Source: Luteibaculum oceani (lineage in GTDB: Bacteria; Bacteroidota; Bacteroidia; Flavobacteriales_D; Luteibaculaceae). From it: DNA of 64,000 bases. Under the pieces are notes generated by a model that was not told the origin of the DNA, did not search any database, and saw only the letters and a program-made list of their open reading frames with translations. Location of the stretch: NCBI RefSeq assembly GCF_007995015.1, contig NZ_VORB01000006.1, forward strand, positions 1 through 64,000, in the 5' to 3' direction. The position numbers and the translations under genes were made by a program. Numbering within the stretch: position 1 is the stretch's first letter; each line of letters opens with the position of its first letter. This document shows, piece after piece, positions 27,717 through 59,977 of this stretch.

Positions 27717-27752
27717 AAAAAAGCCCGTTCAATTATTGAACGGGCTTTTTTT
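27717..27752. terminator. Bidirectional terminator between CheB-CheR kinase gene and ssrA
   Basis: AAAAAAGCCCGTTCAA (17-32 of 27700) pairs with its complement at 27736-27751 around a 3-nt loop. T-runs follow on both strands, so it ends both the kinase mRNA and the tmRNA precursor. Confidence 0.92.
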
Positions 27753-27753
27753 G

Positions 27754-28152
27754 TGGAGCCGGAGGGATTCGAACCCTCGTCCAAACAAGGAACAATAGAG
27801 CTTTCTACATGCTTAGCAGTTACTTAATTTTCGACTTAAAGCTGACTAACTGCGGCCTACTTTAAGCTTATTCTGTTAGGTTTCACTGACAAGTCCAGAA
27901 TTCTTGCCAACTATTCCACCTGAATGAAACCCCGTATATCAACACCGGTAGACAGAATGTTGATGGGATTCTCGTCCTGCCGTACTGTACTTCGGGCTAG
28001 GATTAAGCTATAATCGTCTTAGACAGATTATGCTGCGAGAGCATAGTTGTTTTCGCCATTTAAAGCGTTGAAAGTTGATATTTACGAGCCAACAAACAAA
28101 GCTCGGCATGCTTACTGTATCATCTCTCTTGTAGTCAAAACCAGTCGACCCC
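27754..28152 (-). ncRNA. ssrA: Transfer-messenger RNA
   Basis: Rescues stalled ribosomes together with SmpB. The 5' end GGGGTCG (28146-28152) pairs over 7 bases with CGGCTCC (27755-27761) to form the acceptor stem, including two wobbles. The T-arm GAGGG-TTCGAAT-CCCTC is intact. The GGTTTTGAC element near the 5' end is typical. The length is 399 nt. The chromosome continues A-CAAAA after the acceptor, so the terminal CCA is not encoded and must be added. Confidence 0.95.
28028..28057 (-). CDS. tmRNA tag reading frame GENNYALAA
   Basis: The minus strand reads GGC GAA AAC AAC TAT GCT CTC GCA GCA TAA, giving the degradation tag GENNYALAA. It is translated after resumption on the tmRNA and marks stalled peptides for Clp-type proteases. 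This tag form is usual in Bacteroidota. The resume codon is GGC. Confidence 0.95.
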   Translation of the reverse strand, partial: GENNYALAA

Positions 28153-53528: not shown

Positions 53529-53558
53529 TTTGAGGGTATAGATTTAGAATTATATTTG
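53529..53558 (+). promoter_or_regulatory. trp operon promoter
   Basis: TTTG at 53529-53532 and TATATTTG at 53551-53558, separated by 18 bases, give a near-ideal Bacteroidota promoter (TTG -33, TAnnTTTG -7). Transcription should begin only a few bases after the -7 box, close to the leader ATG at 53569. Upstream, 53381-53528 is AT-rich and shows nothing else recognised. Confidence 0.75.
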
Positions 53559-53568
53559 CCTCGGGATT

Positions 53569-53613
53569 ATGGATTACACAAAGGTAAATATCATTTGGTG
53601 GACACGACGGTGA
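53569..53613 (+). CDS. trpL: trp leader peptide
   Basis: A 14-residue frame, ATG to TGA, encodes MDYTKVNIIWWTRR. The two Trp codons sit side by side at 53596-53601, three codons before the stop. This is the classic layout for a ribosome-stalling leader of a tryptophan operon. It lies between a good promoter and a terminator placed just before trpE. It has no clear Shine-Dalgarno sequence and a predicted 5' leader of only a few bases. Confidence 0.85.
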   Translation: MDYTKVNIIWWTRR

Positions 53614-53664
53614 TTGAACTGTTGTGAAACCTTAATTTTACCTTAAAGCGGATTGTTCACAACA
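53603..53664 (+). promoter_or_regulatory. trp attenuator alternative pairings (1:2 and 2:3)
   Basis: Segment 1 CACGACGGT (53603-53611) can pair with segment 2 ACTGTTGTG (53618-53626) over 9 bp with two G-U pairs. Segment 2 as TGTTGTGAA (53620-53628) can instead pair with segment 3 TTCACAACA (53656-53664) over 9 bp. That 2:3 pairing would break the 3:4 terminator. A ribosome stalled on the Trp codons would cover segment 1 and favour 2:3. Confidence 0.78.
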
Positions 53665-53676
53665 ATCCGCTTTTTT
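53645..53676 (+). terminator. trp attenuator terminator
   Basis: AAAGCGGATTGTT (53645-53657) and AACAATCCGCTTT (53661-53673) form a perfect 13-bp stem with a CAC loop, followed by T residues, 13 bases before the trpE ATG. It is very strong. Being placed between leader peptide and structural genes, it should act as the attenuator. Confidence 0.92.
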
Positions 53677-53689
53677 ATTTTCTATAGGC

Positions 53690-55090
53690 ATGAAACTAAA
53701 AGCATTTTACAAAGAACTAATTGCAGATACATACACTCCGGTGAGTGCGTACCTTAAACTGAGAGACATTTTTCCCAATAGTTATTTATTGGAAAGTGCC
53801 GATCGTCATAGCCAGGAAAACGCCACGAGTTATATATGTTTTAATCCCATAGCAACTGTTTGGGTGGATACCGATTTGAGTTTCAACTATCAAAACTTTT
53901 TGTTGAAGCAAATAGAGAAGGTTAAAGACTTATCAAAAAAGGAGCTTATTAATAAGGTGGATACCTGTTTTGAATCCTTTGCGGTGGAGAATGCAAACGA
54001 GCTCCAATTCAAAAACGGTTTTTTCGGAATGCTCAGTTTCGAGGGCGTTTCTTTGTTCGAGGATATAGATTTTTCGCCCAGCGAGGAACAGTCTGAGCCG
54101 CTGTTGCATTACACGCTTTTTAAGAATGTCTTAGAGATAAATCACTTTTCTAACACCGCTAGAATTTATTGTTTTAGTGAGGATGATAGTCATAATCTCA
54201 TTGAAATTGAGGAGCTATTATCCATAAAAACATATCCAAGCTATCGGTTGAATATCAGCGAAGAAAGAAGCTGCAATAATACCGAGTCGGCATTTAAAAA
54301 TGCGGTAAGCAAAGGCAAGGAATTCTGTAAAAAGGGCGATGTTTTTCAGGTTGTATTGTCGAGAGAATTCCAAAGGGACTACCAGGGTGATGAGTTTAAT
54401 CTTTATCGGGCATTGCGTGCGGTTAACCCTTCGCCCTACATGTTTTACTTCGATTTAGCTCATTTCAAATTCCTAGGAGCTTCGCCCGAGGCGCAAATAA
54501 AAAGTGAGGGTGGTAATTTGGTTATATCTCCTATTGCGGGAACGATAAAGCGTTCGGGGAATGACGATCTGGATCGCGAATTAGCCAAAAAACTAAGTGA
54601 GGATCCCAAAGAAAATGCCGAACATACTATGTTGGTTGATTTGGCAAGAAATGACCTTTCTAAAGTTGCTAACCAGGTTGAGGTAGAGAGTTATAGAGAA
54701 ATTCATTACTACTCTCATGTTATCCATCTGGTAAGTAAGGTTATTGGAAAAGCAAAGGCTGGAAATAGTCCTCTTGAAATTCTCGGAGCTTCATTTCCTG
54801 CAGGAACACTTTCTGGTGCGCCTAAATATCGGGCGATGGAAATTATTCGAGATTTGGAACAAAAGCCAAGGGGATTGTATGGAGGAACTGTTGGGTTTAT
54901 TGGACTTGATGGAAGTATTAACCAAGCTATTTTTATTAGATCCGCAGTGTGCAGATCGAACAAGTTAATATATAGAGCAGGGGCTGGAGTAGTGGATGCC
55001 AGTACCGAGGAGGGAGAGTTGGCCGAAGTATACCATAAAGTGGGGGCTATCGAGAAGGCTATTGATATTGCTAACCGAAATTTTAGGTAA
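53690..55090 (+). CDS. trpE: Anthranilate synthase component I
   Basis: Makes anthranilate from chorismate with ammonia from TrpG. The 466-aa protein has the feedback-site motif LLESA (33-37), where tryptophan binds, and the chorismate site (VNPSPYMFYFD, PIAGTIKRSG, DPKENAEHTMLVDLARND). Length is normal. It is the first structural gene, directly after the attenuator, and its stop overlaps the trpG start by one base. Confidence 0.97.
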   Translation: MKLKAFYKELIADTYTPVSAYLKLRDIFPNSYLLESADRHSQENATSYICFNPIATVWVDTDLSFNYQNFLLKQIEKVKDLSKKELINKVDTCFESFAVENANELQFKNGFFGMLSFEGVSLFEDIDFSPSEEQSEPLLHYTLFKNVLEINHFSNTARIYCFSEDDSHNLIEIEELLSIKTYPSYRLNISEERSCNNTESAFKNAVSKGKEFCKKGDVFQVVLSREFQRDYQGDEFNLYRALRAVNPSPYMFYFDLAHFKFLGASPEAQIKSEGGNLVISPIAGTIKRSGNDDLDRELAKKLSEDPKENAEHTMLVDLARNDLSKVANQVEVESYREIHYYSHVIHLVSKVIGKAKAGNSPLEILGASFPAGTLSGAPKYRAMEIIRDLEQKPRGLYGGTVGFIGLDGSINQAIFIRSAVCRSNKLIYRAGAGVVDASTEEGELAEVYHKVGAIEKAIDIANRNFR

Positions 55091-55665
55091 TGAAAATTTT
55101 ATTACTCGACAATTACGATTCATTTACGTACAACCTAGAGCACTATTTGGTGGATTTGGGGGCTAATGTAACCGTGGTACGCAACGATAAAATTGGTCTT
55201 AAGGAAATGGATGCATTTGATGCTTTTGTTTTTTCTCCAGGGCCTGGACTACCGAAAGATGCAGGTATTTTGAAGGAGTGTATTTCTTACTATTCAAAAT
55301 CCAAGCCCATGTTGGGGATCTGTTTGGGTATGCAAGCTATAGCCGAAGTTTTTGGGGGTAAACTAAACAATTTGAGCACCGTTTACCATGGGACTAGTTC
55401 CGACATAAAAATTTTGGGGCAAGATCCTATTTACAAAAACCTTCCAGAGCAGATTTCAGTAGGTAGGTACCATAGTTGGGAAGTAAAGGGAGATCTTCCT
55501 TCCGAACTAGAATTAACCTCTACAGAAGTCGATTCAGGAACTATCATGTCCTTAAAACATAGGTCTTTACCAATTTGGGGATTACAGTATCATCCCGAAT
55601 CCATTTTAACTCCACAAGGAAAGCAGCTTTTGGCAAACTGGATGGAAGCTGTTGGTAACAATTAA
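55090..55665 (+). CDS. trpG: Anthranilate synthase component II (glutamine amidotransferase)
   Basis: Class I glutamine amidotransferase that feeds ammonia to TrpE. The triad is Cys78 in GICLGMQ, with His168 and Glu170 in YHPES. It is 191 aa and unfused. Its ATG overlaps the trpE stop (ATGA), so the two are translationally coupled. The next gene, trpD, starts 10 bases later. Confidence 0.97.
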   Translation: MKILLLDNYDSFTYNLEHYLVDLGANVTVVRNDKIGLKEMDAFDAFVFSPGPGLPKDAGILKECISYYSKSKPMLGICLGMQAIAEVFGGKLNNLSTVYHGTSSDIKILGQDPIYKNLPEQISVGRYHSWEVKGDLPSELELTSTEVDSGTIMSLKHRSLPIWGLQYHPESILTPQGKQLLANWMEAVGNN

Positions 55666-55675
55666 GACTCAAGCC

Positions 55676-56671
55676 ATGAAATTATATTTACAAAAGGTAT
55701 TTCAACACCAATTTCTTACCAAGGAAGAAGCAAAAAGCGCCATGGAACACATGGCAAGCGGAGAGGCCAACGAGATCCAAATGGCTGCCTTTGTTGCAGC
55801 AATGATGATGCGTCCAATGGATATCCACGAATTAGAGGGTTTTAGGGAAGCGCTTTTGGAACTCTGCGTTCGGGTAGATTTAAACCAAGGAGACTGTATA
55901 GACTTATGTGGTACGGGGGGAGATGGGAAAAATACTTTTAACATATCCACACTTTCCTCCTTTGTTGCGGCTGGAGCTGGTATTCCTGTGACCAAACACG
56001 GAAATTATGGAGTGAGTTCGGTGTCTGGTTCCTCCAATGTTTTGGAGCATCTTGGCATAACTTTTACCGCAGATCCAAACAAATTACAAGAGCAATTGGA
56101 TAAAGCTGGGATTTGCTTTTTACATGCTCCCAAATTTCACCCCGCCCTGAAAAATGTAGCAGGAGTAAGAAAAAGCCTTGGTGTTAAAACCTTCTTTAAT
56201 ATACTTGGACCCATGGTAAATCCAGCCTTCCCAAAGAAACAACTGGTTGGAGTATTTAATTTAGAAGTGGCCAGGAATTACCAATACATTTTCCAAAATG
56301 CGGGCAAGTCGTTTATGGTGCTGCATGCCTTAGATGGTTATGATGAGATTTCTGGGACGGGCCCAGTGAAATTTTTGGGTAACCAAAGCGAGGGAATGTT
56401 CAATCCGTCGGAACTTATTGGCCGAAATTTAGCCGAGGAGGAGTTACATGCTGGTGATTCCGTTGAGGACGCTGCAAAGATCTTTATGGATGTTTTAAAT
56501 AACAGCTGTACCGAGGCCCAGAAGGCAGTAGTTGCATGTAATGCTGGTGCGGCAATAAAAACTTATTACCCTAATGTAAGTTGGGAAGATGCCTATTCGC
56601 TCTCAATGGAAAGTATAGAAAGCGGCAAGGCTATATCTAGATTCGAAAAATTAAAAGAGCTATCTCAATAA
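55676..56671 (+). CDS. trpD: Anthranilate phosphoribosyltransferase
   Basis: Transfers phosphoribose to anthranilate. The diphosphate-binding motif CGTGGDGKNTFN is present, with the TKHGNYGVSS element following. I start at the ATG of MKLYLQKVF (331 aa), which follows trpG by 10 bases; the frame extends 24 bases further to 55652. The end touches trpC by one base. Confidence 0.96.
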   Translation: MKLYLQKVFQHQFLTKEEAKSAMEHMASGEANEIQMAAFVAAMMMRPMDIHELEGFREALLELCVRVDLNQGDCIDLCGTGGDGKNTFNISTLSSFVAAGAGIPVTKHGNYGVSSVSGSSNVLEHLGITFTADPNKLQEQLDKAGICFLHAPKFHPALKNVAGVRKSLGVKTFFNILGPMVNPAFPKKQLVGVFNLEVARNYQYIFQNAGKSFMVLHALDGYDEISGTGPVKFLGNQSEGMFNPSELIGRNLAEEELHAGDSVEDAAKIFMDVLNNSCTEAQKAVVACNAGAAIKTYYPNVSWEDAYSLSMESIESGKAISRFEKLKELSQ

Positions 56672-57405
56672 TGACCGTTCTAGAAAAAATAGTTGCAGAT
56701 AAGAAGGAAGCGCTTGTTGCAACAAAGCAAAGGGTTTCTCTGGCTCAATTAAAGGATGAAGCTTTTTACAACAGAAAAAGTATTGAGCCTAAAACCAACG
56801 GAAAGCCATTTATTATTACCGAATTTAAAAGAAGGTCTCCATCCAACCCAGATATTAACCTCCATGCAGATTTATCCCAAAAAGTAAGGGAGTATCAAAG
56901 TCTTGGTTGTAGTGCCATATCTGTCCTAACCGAAACCAATTATTTTGGAGGAAGTAATGCAGATTTAATAAGTGCGAGAACTAAATGTGAGGTTCCGATT
57001 CTGCGCAAGGATTTCATAGTAGACTCCTATCAAATCCACGAGTCTAAGGCTATTGGGGCGGATATGGTATTGTTAATTGCAGCAAGTTTGGAAAAACAGC
57101 AAATGGCTGATTTATTCGATCTCTCCCTTGAGCTTGGTTTAACTCCTTTGGTTGAAATCCATGAGGAAGACGAACTTTCCAAGATTCCAGAAAACACAGT
57201 TTGGTTGGGTGTAAACAGTAGAAACCTGAAAACGCTGGAAACTGATAAATCCAAGTTTCTGAAAATATATCCCCAACTACCGAGCCATACGATTAAAGTA
57301 GCCGAAAGTGCCATTAAATCAAAGACCGAGGTGGATGAGCTTTTTGGATTGGGCTATAGTGCTTTCCTAATTGGGGAGGCGTTTATGCAGGGAGGATTGC
57401 AATGA
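56671..57405 (+). CDS. trpC: Indole-3-glycerol phosphate synthase
   Basis: Closes the indole ring from CdRP. The TIM-barrel motifs FIITEFKRRSPSNPDI, LRKDFIVDSYQIHES and ESAIKSKTEVDEL are typical and supply the catalytic Lys and Glu residues. 244 aa, a monofunctional form separate from TrpF. The ATG overlaps the trpD stop by one base and the end overlaps trpF by 4 bases. Confidence 0.97.
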   Translation: MTVLEKIVADKKEALVATKQRVSLAQLKDEAFYNRKSIEPKTNGKPFIITEFKRRSPSNPDINLHADLSQKVREYQSLGCSAISVLTETNYFGGSNADLISARTKCEVPILRKDFIVDSYQIHESKAIGADMVLLIAASLEKQQMADLFDLSLELGLTPLVEIHEEDELSKIPENTVWLGVNSRNLKTLETDKSKFLKIYPQLPSHTIKVAESAIKSKTEVDELFGLGYSAFLIGEAFMQGGLQ

Positions 57406-58025
57406 AAAGTTTAAAGCTTAAAGTCTGTGGTTTACGAAATAACATCACTGAGGTAGATGGGTTAAATCCTGATTATTTGGGCTTTATATTTTGGGGGCCG
57501 TCCAGTCGATTCAATAATGCGCAACATCTTCCGCAAACAAAGGGGAAAAAAGTAGGTGTTTTTGTAGATGCCTCTCAAGAAACCATTGGGGCCAAGATTA
57601 ATCAGCTGGGATTGGATGCCGTTCAGCTGCACGGGAGAGAATCCCAAGATTTTTGTGCGGAAATAAAGGGGCTTGGAGTGGAACTATTCAAAGCCATTCG
57701 GGTTGAAAAAGGGAATTTGAGGTTAGAGCAATTACGAGGATTTGAACCCTATGTAGATTACTTTCTTTTTGATACCGCGGGGAAATTACCTGGTGGTAAT
57801 GGTGTCCGATTCGACTGGTCCAGACTTAATAATTACGCATTGGAAAAGCCTTTCTTTTTAAGTGGGGGAATAGCTCCAGAAAACCAAGTTGAAGCCATAG
57901 AATATGCCCAAAAGCACCCTTTTTGTGTAGGGTTGGATGTTAACTCTGGCTTTGAAATTGAGCCGGGTTTGAAAAATATAGATGCATTAATAAAACTGAA
58001 ATCTGCAATTGATGAAAATGCATGA
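57402..58025 (+). CDS. trpF: Phosphoribosylanthranilate isomerase
   Basis: Isomerises phosphoribosylanthranilate to CdRP. The catalytic Cys9 in KVCGLRN and the catalytic Asp in LFDTAG are visible, with the phosphate-binding [10 protein letters not shown]. 207 aa, unfused. It overlaps trpC by 4 bases and trpB by 14 bases, which implies coupled translation. Confidence 0.96.
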
Positions 58026-59241
58026 TTTGCCATTAGGCTATACAAATAAGTATCAAGTTAATAGCGAAGGGTTTTACGGCGACTTCGGGGGAGCCTTCAT
58101 ACCCGAAATGCTTCGGAAAAACATAGAGGAGCTCCAGGAGGCCTATTTGAAAATAATGGATTCAGAATCCTTTAAAAAGGAATGGGTTGGACTACTTAAG
58201 GATTATGTAGGAAGACCAAGTCCATTATTTTACGCCAAGCGATTAAGCGAAAAATACAGTGCAAAAATTTACCTGAAAAGGGAAGATCTTAACCATACAG
58301 GAGCACACAAAATAAACAACACCATTGGTCAGATTTTACTTGCCGAAGCGCTCGGTAAAAAAAGGATAATTGCCGAAACTGGGGCAGGCCAGCACGGTGT
58401 TGCAACGGCTACGGTATGCGCTTTGAGAGGATTAGATTGTATTGTGTACATGGGGGAGAAGGATATAGATCGTCAGGCGCCCAATGTTGCTCGTATGAAA
58501 ATGTTGGGTGCTGAAGTAAGGCCAGCAAAAAGCGGCTCTAAAACGCTAAAAGATGCAACGAATGAGGCTATACGCGATTGGATAAATCATCCCGATGAAA
58601 CGCATTATATAATTGGTTCTGTTGTTGGACCGCATCCTTACCCCGATTTGGTGGCGAGGTTTCAGAGCATCATTTCCTCCGAAATAAAAGTGCAATTAGT
58701 CGAGAGCGAACAAAGAGAACATCCAGATAAGGTAATAGCTTGTGTAGGTGGTGGAAGCAATGCCGCAGGAGCCTTTTATCATTTTCTTGAAAATGAAAAT
58801 GTAGAGCTCATAGCTGTTGAAGCCGCAGGGCATGGCGTGGATACCGGAATGACAGCTGCTACGGTAGCAAAGGGTACACAGGGCGTAATTCATGGTTCTA
58901 TGACCTTGATGATGCAAGATCAATACGGTCAGATAATTGAACCTCATAGTATTTCTGCAGGCCTGGATTATCCAGGGATTGGACCAGCATACGCTCACTG
59001 GGCCAACAGCTCTCGTGTGAATTTCCAGGCAGTAACCGATGAGCAAGCGCTAAATGCGGCACTTGAAGTGTCACGGTTAGAAGGTATAATCCCAGCTTTG
59101 GAATCGGCGCATGCCTTTGCAGTGCTTAACCAAATGGAGTTAAAACGCGACGACCTTGTAGTTATCTGCCTATCAGGAAGAGGGGACAAAGACATGAGAA
59201 CCTATCAAGAATTTTTAAAGGATCAGGAGCATGAAAAATAA
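58012..59241 (+). CDS. trpB: Tryptophan synthase beta subunit
   Basis: PLP enzyme that joins indole and serine. The PLP Lys lies in [11 protein letters not shown] (residue 98 from the ATG at 58018). The frame also opens with TTG at 58009 and ATG at 58012; I use 58012, which overlaps trpF by 14 bases. [10 protein letters not shown] binds the PLP phosphate. The end overlaps trpA by 11 bases. Confidence 0.96.
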
Positions 59242-59977
59242 ATTGGGCATTTACTTTACGGCGGGTTATCCCAGACCAGAATCTACTCTAGAGATTCTTC
59301 ATGCTTTGGCGGATGCAAAGGTGAAATTTATTGAAGTGGGTATCCCTTTTAGTGATCCACTTGCCGACGGGCCTGTCATTCAGGAAAGCTCTAAACAGGC
59401 ATTGGAACTTGGGGTTAACTTGGATAAGATTTTTGAGGATTTAAAGCAGTTTAAATTAGAGCGTACGGATCACCCCGATTTATACCTAATGGGGTACCTA
59501 AATTCCGTTTTGAGCTATGGGGTGGAGAACTTTTTATCTCAGGCGCAAACTGCAGGTGTTACTGGGGTTATCCTACCCGATTTGCCTTTTAATTACTACC
59601 AAAAGCATTATCAGGCTCTTTTTAACACCTATAATATTAAGCCCGTTTTTTTAATATCACCTGCGAGTAGTAGTACCTATATTGAGGTCTTGGATCAAGC
59701 TAATTTGGGCTTCATTTATGTGCTGAGTAGCAATGCCACTACCGGTAAAAAACTAAGTCTTTCCGATAACGAAGCCTTTTTTAAAAGGCTAAGGGCTATG
59801 GACTTAAAAACTGAAACCTATTTAGGGTTTGGTATAAAATCAAAGGAAGACATTACCTATGCATCCACCTTTTTCGATGGTGGAATAATAGGTTCGGAAA
59901 TGATTCGAAGGTTGGACGATAAGGAGTTAGATAGTCCTAAAAAAGCAATAAATCGATTTATGCAGGAGTTGGTTTAA
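59231..59977 (+). CDS. trpA: Tryptophan synthase alpha subunit
   Basis: Cleaves indole-3-glycerol phosphate and passes indole to TrpB. The catalytic pair Glu35 ([11 protein letters not shown]) and Asp46 (LADGP) match E. coli Glu49 and Asp60. 248 aa, slightly short but complete. The start overlaps trpB by 11 bases. No clear terminator hairpin was found right after the stop. It ends the trpEGDCFBA operon. Confidence 0.96.

Follow-up and report, generated by a model that had tools for sequence, protein, structure and literature searches.

A probable ribosome-mediated transcription attenuator before the trp operon of Luteibaculum oceani

The trp operon of Luteibaculum oceani is very probably governed by a ribosome-mediated transcription attenuator. 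We analysed a window of 64,000 nucleotides from contig NZ_VORB01000006.1, in which a short leader is followed by a complete, intact trpEGDCFBA operon at 53690–59977. The first gene, trpE (53690–55090, + strand), is followed by trpG, trpD, trpC, trpF, trpB and trpA (55090–59977, + strand). The TrpE protein scores below the curated NCBIfam equivalog cut-off; its best match is still anthranilate synthase component I and, given the operon context, there is little doubt about its identity. The gene is patchy in the window's order, with no close TrpE in most sampled genomes, and the window's protein comes nearest (51%) to proteins of the Salinivirgaceae type; the operon may thus have been lost or transferred.

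In the mechanism that we propose, RNA polymerase would start about 6 nt before the leader AUG, and translation would begin on a nearly leaderless transcript. With Trp-tRNA scarce, the ribosome would stall on two Trp codons and cover segment 1, leaving segment 2 free to pair with segment 3, the terminator apex, as it emerges; the hairpin would be blocked and trpEGDCFBA transcribed. With Trp plentiful, the ribosome would reach the stop codon and cover part of segment 2, while in the absence of translation a 1:2 pairing would tie segment 2 up. Either way the 3:4 hairpin would form and transcription would end before trpE, giving the operon a response to tryptophan.

A preliminary description of this DNA had claimed a 14-codon frame with two adjacent Trp codons, and the frame is there: the leader peptide ORF, MDYTKVNIIWWTRR with its stop codon, occupies 53569–53613 (+ strand), and the tandem Trp codons, the putative stall site, lie at 53596–53601 (+ strand). 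The window thus holds, upstream of its trp genes, the short ORF with adjacent Trp codons that characterizes ribosome-mediated trp attenuators. By eye, the closest leader is MYTKVLTNWWQIKLL.S of three Saprospiraceae metagenome-assembled genomes (loci L156, L162 and L168), which likewise has two Trp codons and precedes a terminator arm starting with AAAAAGCGG. To compare related leaders for conserved Trp codons, as had been suggested, we collected upstream regions from TrpE searches over the phylum and over named genomes, and scored 125 units of Trp-run leader plus terminator, nearly all upstream of trpE and drawn from more than 20 families. A WW or WWW leader followed by a terminator before trpE was present almost throughout the class and also in several further classes, so that such leaders recur across the phylum.

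The preliminary description had also called the promoter near-ideal, and each of its elements is in place. The −33 box of a Bacteroidota sigma-A promoter, TTTG, lies at 53529–53532 (+ strand; consensus as in PMC7366714), and an 18-nt spacer separates it from the −7 box, TATATTTG, at 53551–53558 (+ strand; consensus TAnnTTTG). The TAnnTTTG box of F. psychrophilum promoters spans −12 to −5 (PMC9723704), from which a box-to-ATG gap of g corresponds to a predicted 5′UTR of g − 4. The gap in the window is 10 nt, which places the predicted start of the leader transcript at about 53563 and gives a predicted 5′UTR of about 6 nt, an estimate from promoter position with the start itself unmapped. A perfect TAnnTTTG occurs no more than 40 nt from the leader ATG in 82 of the 125 leaders, against a background of 0.047 per 48 nt. 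Gap lengths have a bimodal distribution, with 42 at 4–11 nt, none at 12–15 nt and the remainder at 16–31 nt (peak 16–19). In 40 of the 82 leaders with a recognisable promoter the gap is at most 10 nt, equivalent to a predicted 5′UTR of 0–6 nt; genome-wide, about 3.7% of B. thetaiotaomicron 5′UTRs are shorter than 10 nt (PMC7366714), and leaderless transcripts make up 5.5% of F. psychrophilum mRNAs (PMC9723704). Near-leaderless transcripts for these leader peptides are thereby predicted from where the promoter sits, and in the literature searched we found no earlier description of a near-leaderless leader AUG. Bacteroidota ribosomes do not rely on Shine–Dalgarno pairing, and such leaders would offer a test case for translation start by ribosomes of this kind.

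The leader RNA folds with z = −6.9, and none of 200 shuffles was equally stable. Besides the 1:2 pairing and the terminator, its minimum free energy structure includes two further helices: a small one, GGU/ACC, and an outer one missing from the preliminary description, in which AAGGTAAA (53581–53588, + strand) pairs with TTTACCTT (53637–53644, + strand). Segment 1, CACGACGGT (53603–53611, + strand), pairs with 53618–53626 (ACTGTTGTG) over 9 bp, two of them G–U; at p = 0.06 in the window this helix is not significant alone. Segment 2 spans 53618–53628 (+ strand), and its portion 53620–53628 (TGTTGTGAA) forms 9 Watson–Crick pairs with segment 3, TTCACAACA (53656–53664, + strand), which comprises the last 2 nt of the terminator 5′ arm, the loop and the first 4 nt of the 3′ arm. 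This 2:3 helix starts 18 nt past the Trp run and has p = 0.027 in the window. Such 2:3 values come from a single-helix test, adopted in place of a duplex-based test that mixed several helices, in which the best unbroken helix joining the region after the Trp codons to the terminator hairpin is set against dinucleotide shuffles.

The intrinsic terminator, AAAGCGGATTGTT(cac)AACAATCCGCTTT with its T-run, occupies 53645–53676 (+ strand) and is supported by sequence, fold and covariation. Its 3:4 stem, 53645–53657/53661–53673, is the perfect 13-bp helix that had been described just before trpE, with a 3-nt loop and a T-run after it; the trpE ATG is at 53690. All three pairings proposed as mutually exclusive could be placed at the coordinates above. 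Pairings 2:3 and 3:4 share only 53656–53657, 53661–53664 and the loop, which confines their competition to the hairpin apex rather than the whole 5′ arm.

Folding with and without a blocked segment 1 had been put forward as a check, and we carried it out by constrained (masked) folding of growing transcripts, with a ribosome at the Trp codons, at the stop codon or absent. Without a ribosome the 1:2 pairing was fully formed and the probability of 2:3 was 0.00. With a ribosome on Trp10 or Trp11 the 2:3 helix appeared, at a probability of 0.91–0.95 for RNA ending at 53664–53666; with a ribosome at the stop codon the value was 0.00–0.33, depending on the footprint assumed. Past 53668, with the 3′ arm complete, the terminator wins at equilibrium in every state, which leaves only a kinetic route to antitermination. 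The same outcome in the E. coli trp control means that the equilibrium result is not evidence against the mechanism. In the window the 2:3 helix is available only at about 53664–53667, and the interval in E. coli is wider.

We built a covariance model, R1, from an alignment of 27 relatives (among them loci L074 and L060) that left the window out; the covariation rows came from other families of the window's order and class. Both sides changed in 9 of the 10 consensus pairs of the terminator, which is thus a conserved element between leader and first gene with compensatory changes. The model matches the window at 53569–53678 (41.2 bits, E 2.1e-6), far ahead of anything else there, and the same leader is its best match in the whole genome. 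The five next-best matches in that genome have no WW leader, and four of these look like ordinary gene ends with hairpins. Though blind to trpE, the model picked out WW leaders immediately upstream of trpE in 23 genomes of the order; rows of the model had come from four of these genomes, and two others carry leaders identical to model rows.

These data bear on whether the hairpin could be a constitutive terminator or an RNA-processing signal beside an incidental WW frame. Its strength in all folding states would suit such a role; the recurrence of WW or WWW frames at one position upstream of trpE in over 20 families, and the lack of any second WW leader among the model's six best matches in the genome, speak against it, and we judge it very improbable.

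Among the relatives, an antiterminator helix with p ≤ 0.05 was found in 73 of the 125 loci, where about 6 were expected, close relatives being counted many times in these totals. Segment 2 starts 14–18 nt past the last Trp codon in 61 of the 73 significant units; over all loci, 79 of 125 helices start at that distance from the Trp run, versus 8.4% in mononucleotide shuffles. The same kind of search on the E. coli trpL control put the helix start 14 nt past the Trp codons. A ribosome stalled on these codons would have its front edge at 14–18 nt. The signal is nevertheless repeated across many families, standing at 9/10 in f15, 31/37 in f17, 4/5 in f18 and 20/31 among the named loci; the 14–18 nt start signal is absent from f16 and f20 in this survey. 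The window's own order gave p ≤ 0.05 for the antiterminator in 6 of 24 scored loci, and single-locus p values are mixed. The window belongs among leaders with an antiterminator that competes with the terminator and starts just past a stalled ribosome, in its case by pairing with the loop and 3′ arm.

Conservation of all three pairings had been put forward as a check, and two of them pass: 3:4 covaries and 2:3 is enriched, while the 1:2 helix reaches p ≤ 0.05 in 8 of the relatives' 125 loci, about chance level. A helix between leader codons and spacer shows modest enrichment (p ≤ 0.05 in 19/125), a result of the survey that lends weak support to the outer helix. One could propose an attenuator in which the outer helix and 1:2 act instead of the apical 2:3, for example by pausing polymerase or displacing the lower stem. 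The outer helix does belong to the minimum free energy structure, leader-codon:spacer helices are mildly enriched, and Rfam family RF01692 as printed shows a leader:spacer helix and no 2:3. We consider this arrangement unlikely, given that 2:3 is far better supported than either helix, that the outer helix and the terminator do not overlap, and that the fixed distance of 2:3 from the Trp codons would go unexplained. Conserved leaders, a covarying terminator and a fixed distance to segment 2 are what ribosome-mediated attenuation predicts, and together they support the geometry first sketched for this leader.

The position of segment 3 on the hairpin varies among the relatives. It corresponds to the terminator 5′ arm in f14, f15 and some others, which resemble E. 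coli in this, and to the 5′ arm together with the loop in Arcicella/Flectobacillus (GTTGAACAGT/ACTGTTCAAC). The loop plus 3′ arm serves as segment 3 in the Flavobacteriaceae-like f17, Saprospiraceae, Crocinitomicaceae, several Bacteroidales and the window, through pairs such as GTCGTGA/TCACGAC, GAGTGAT/ATCACTC, TGTGAGTG/TACTCACG and, in the window, TGTTGTGAA/TTCACAACA. A further short helix, formed with the 5′ arm, may reinforce this pairing in the f17 type. Terminator loops are normally free to drift, which makes a loop that matches a distant segment 2 telling. With segment 2 on the loop and 3′ arm the lower stem would close with difficulty, because no linker spans the 7–9 bp helix; from this absent linker we infer that the loop-capture and terminator states are mutually exclusive. 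We found no description of segment 2 pairing with the loop and 3′ side of a terminator, although the supplement of Weinberg et al. or Lopatovskaya et al. 2010 (cited in PMC4833913) may hold one. Whether these features amount to a distinct Bacteroidota design, with a near-leaderless leader, capture of the loop and 3′ arm base in the window's clade, and a segment 3 that has shifted its place on the hairpin across the phylum (5′ arm; 5′ arm with loop; loop with 3′ arm) at a fixed distance from the Trp codons, seems to us evenly balanced. The relatives form a natural set of variants for testing where on a terminator an antiterminator can be placed.

In several Salinivirgaceae, Marinilabiliales, Bacteroidales and other Bacteroidota metagenome-assembled genomes (loci L141, L144, L145, L146 and L148), tandem trp attenuators lie upstream of trpE. 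Every unit comprises a Trp-containing leader ORF and a terminator-like hairpin of its own, for instance MINNCKNIWWWHFNLLRQ and then MKTNLMNQNWWWHRSNSNG, and several of the second units share a GGTGA segment that matches TCACC in the hairpin loop.

T-box and TRAP-like regulators control trp genes in Firmicutes, and a trans-acting or tRNA-binding regulator of that type could in principle act on the leader in place of the ribosome. An Rfam scan to E 10 found no T-box or other trp regulatory family, and conservation falls on a coding frame that carries Trp codons, with a spacing that fits a ribosome; we regard such a regulator as extremely improbable. The matches that the scan did return at E 10 (L20_leader, BTnc060 and others) were all far below gathering and are chance. 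The BTnc060 match joins the reverse strand of the terminator (53648–53691, − strand) to the 3′ end of this Bacteroides sRNA at 24.4 bits and is probably only shared terminator-like sequence. Elsewhere, the window carries a tmRNA gene at 27751–28152 (− strand; RF00023, 145.7 bits).

The preliminary description had doubted how far such attenuation is documented in Bacteroidota, a doubt that the literature settles. Weinberg et al. (PMC2864571) listed Bacteroid-trp (RF01692) in 2010 as a Bacteroidetes cis-regulatory RNA, the family was cited for the F. psychrophilum trp genes in 2019 (PMC6414381), and a 2021 F. psychrophilum transcriptome reported strong clues for leader-peptide attenuation before amino-acid operons (PMC9723704). 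The attenuator in the window is of the kind predicted for the phylum in 2010. Beyond RF01692, the F. psychrophilum notes and reviews, the literature searched gave no details of Bacteroidetes trp leaders or leaderless Flavobacterium leader peptides, and no experimental dissection of a Bacteroidota trp attenuator.

Like the window, RF01692 is found in Bacteroidota upstream of trp genes, with a Trp-run leader and, ahead of the beginning of a terminator, a leader:spacer helix; it differs in having WWW, where the window has WW, and in its terminator, and its printed structure covers neither the full terminator nor a 2:3 antiterminator. The window gave no match to RF01692 to E 10 (gathering score 49 bits), and several clear relatives also fall short of the gathering score; Flavobacteriaceae-like L062 (75.5 bits), L074 (48.4 bits) and L060 (42.7 bits) match at E ≤ 0.03. 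The Rfam family is therefore narrower than the real class, to which the window is joined by homology, as R1, with L074 and L060 among its rows, finds it at E 2e-6. Across Bacteroidota, ribosome-mediated trp attenuation is probably the rule, extending far past what that single model detects.

The proteobacterial Trp_leader model (RF00513) has no match in the window to E 10, and its gathering score is not reached. E. coli trpL nevertheless resembles the window's leader in its 14 codons, its WW pair and its alternative pairings, the segment 2 helix starting at 14 nt as against 18 nt. In E. coli, segment 2 pairs with the terminator 5′ arm before the 3′ arm is made, whereas in the window it would take the loop and 3′ side; the trpL 5′UTR is 26 nt, against a predicted 6 nt here.

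Mycobacterial poly-Cys uORF attenuators express a sensor peptide from a leaderless or nearly leaderless transcript. They share a sensor peptide and the near-leaderless layout predicted for the window, in another phylum and for another amino acid, and are mentioned in a review (PMC9031893). Poly-Cys leader-like ORFs (CCC to CCCCCC) also precede a PALP/cysteine-synthase gene in the window's order and in other Bacteroidota classes, at L256 (about 1500–1800), L241, L259, L261, L263, L264, L267, L268, L271 and L282. Terminators accompany the leaders at L241 and L256, the latter with two units, and at both loci a JAB-domain gene adjoins the synthase; for the first L256 leader, a TATCTTTG box lies 8 nt upstream of the ATG. 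By analogy, these Bacteroidota leaders look like a parallel to the mycobacterial leaderless attenuators.
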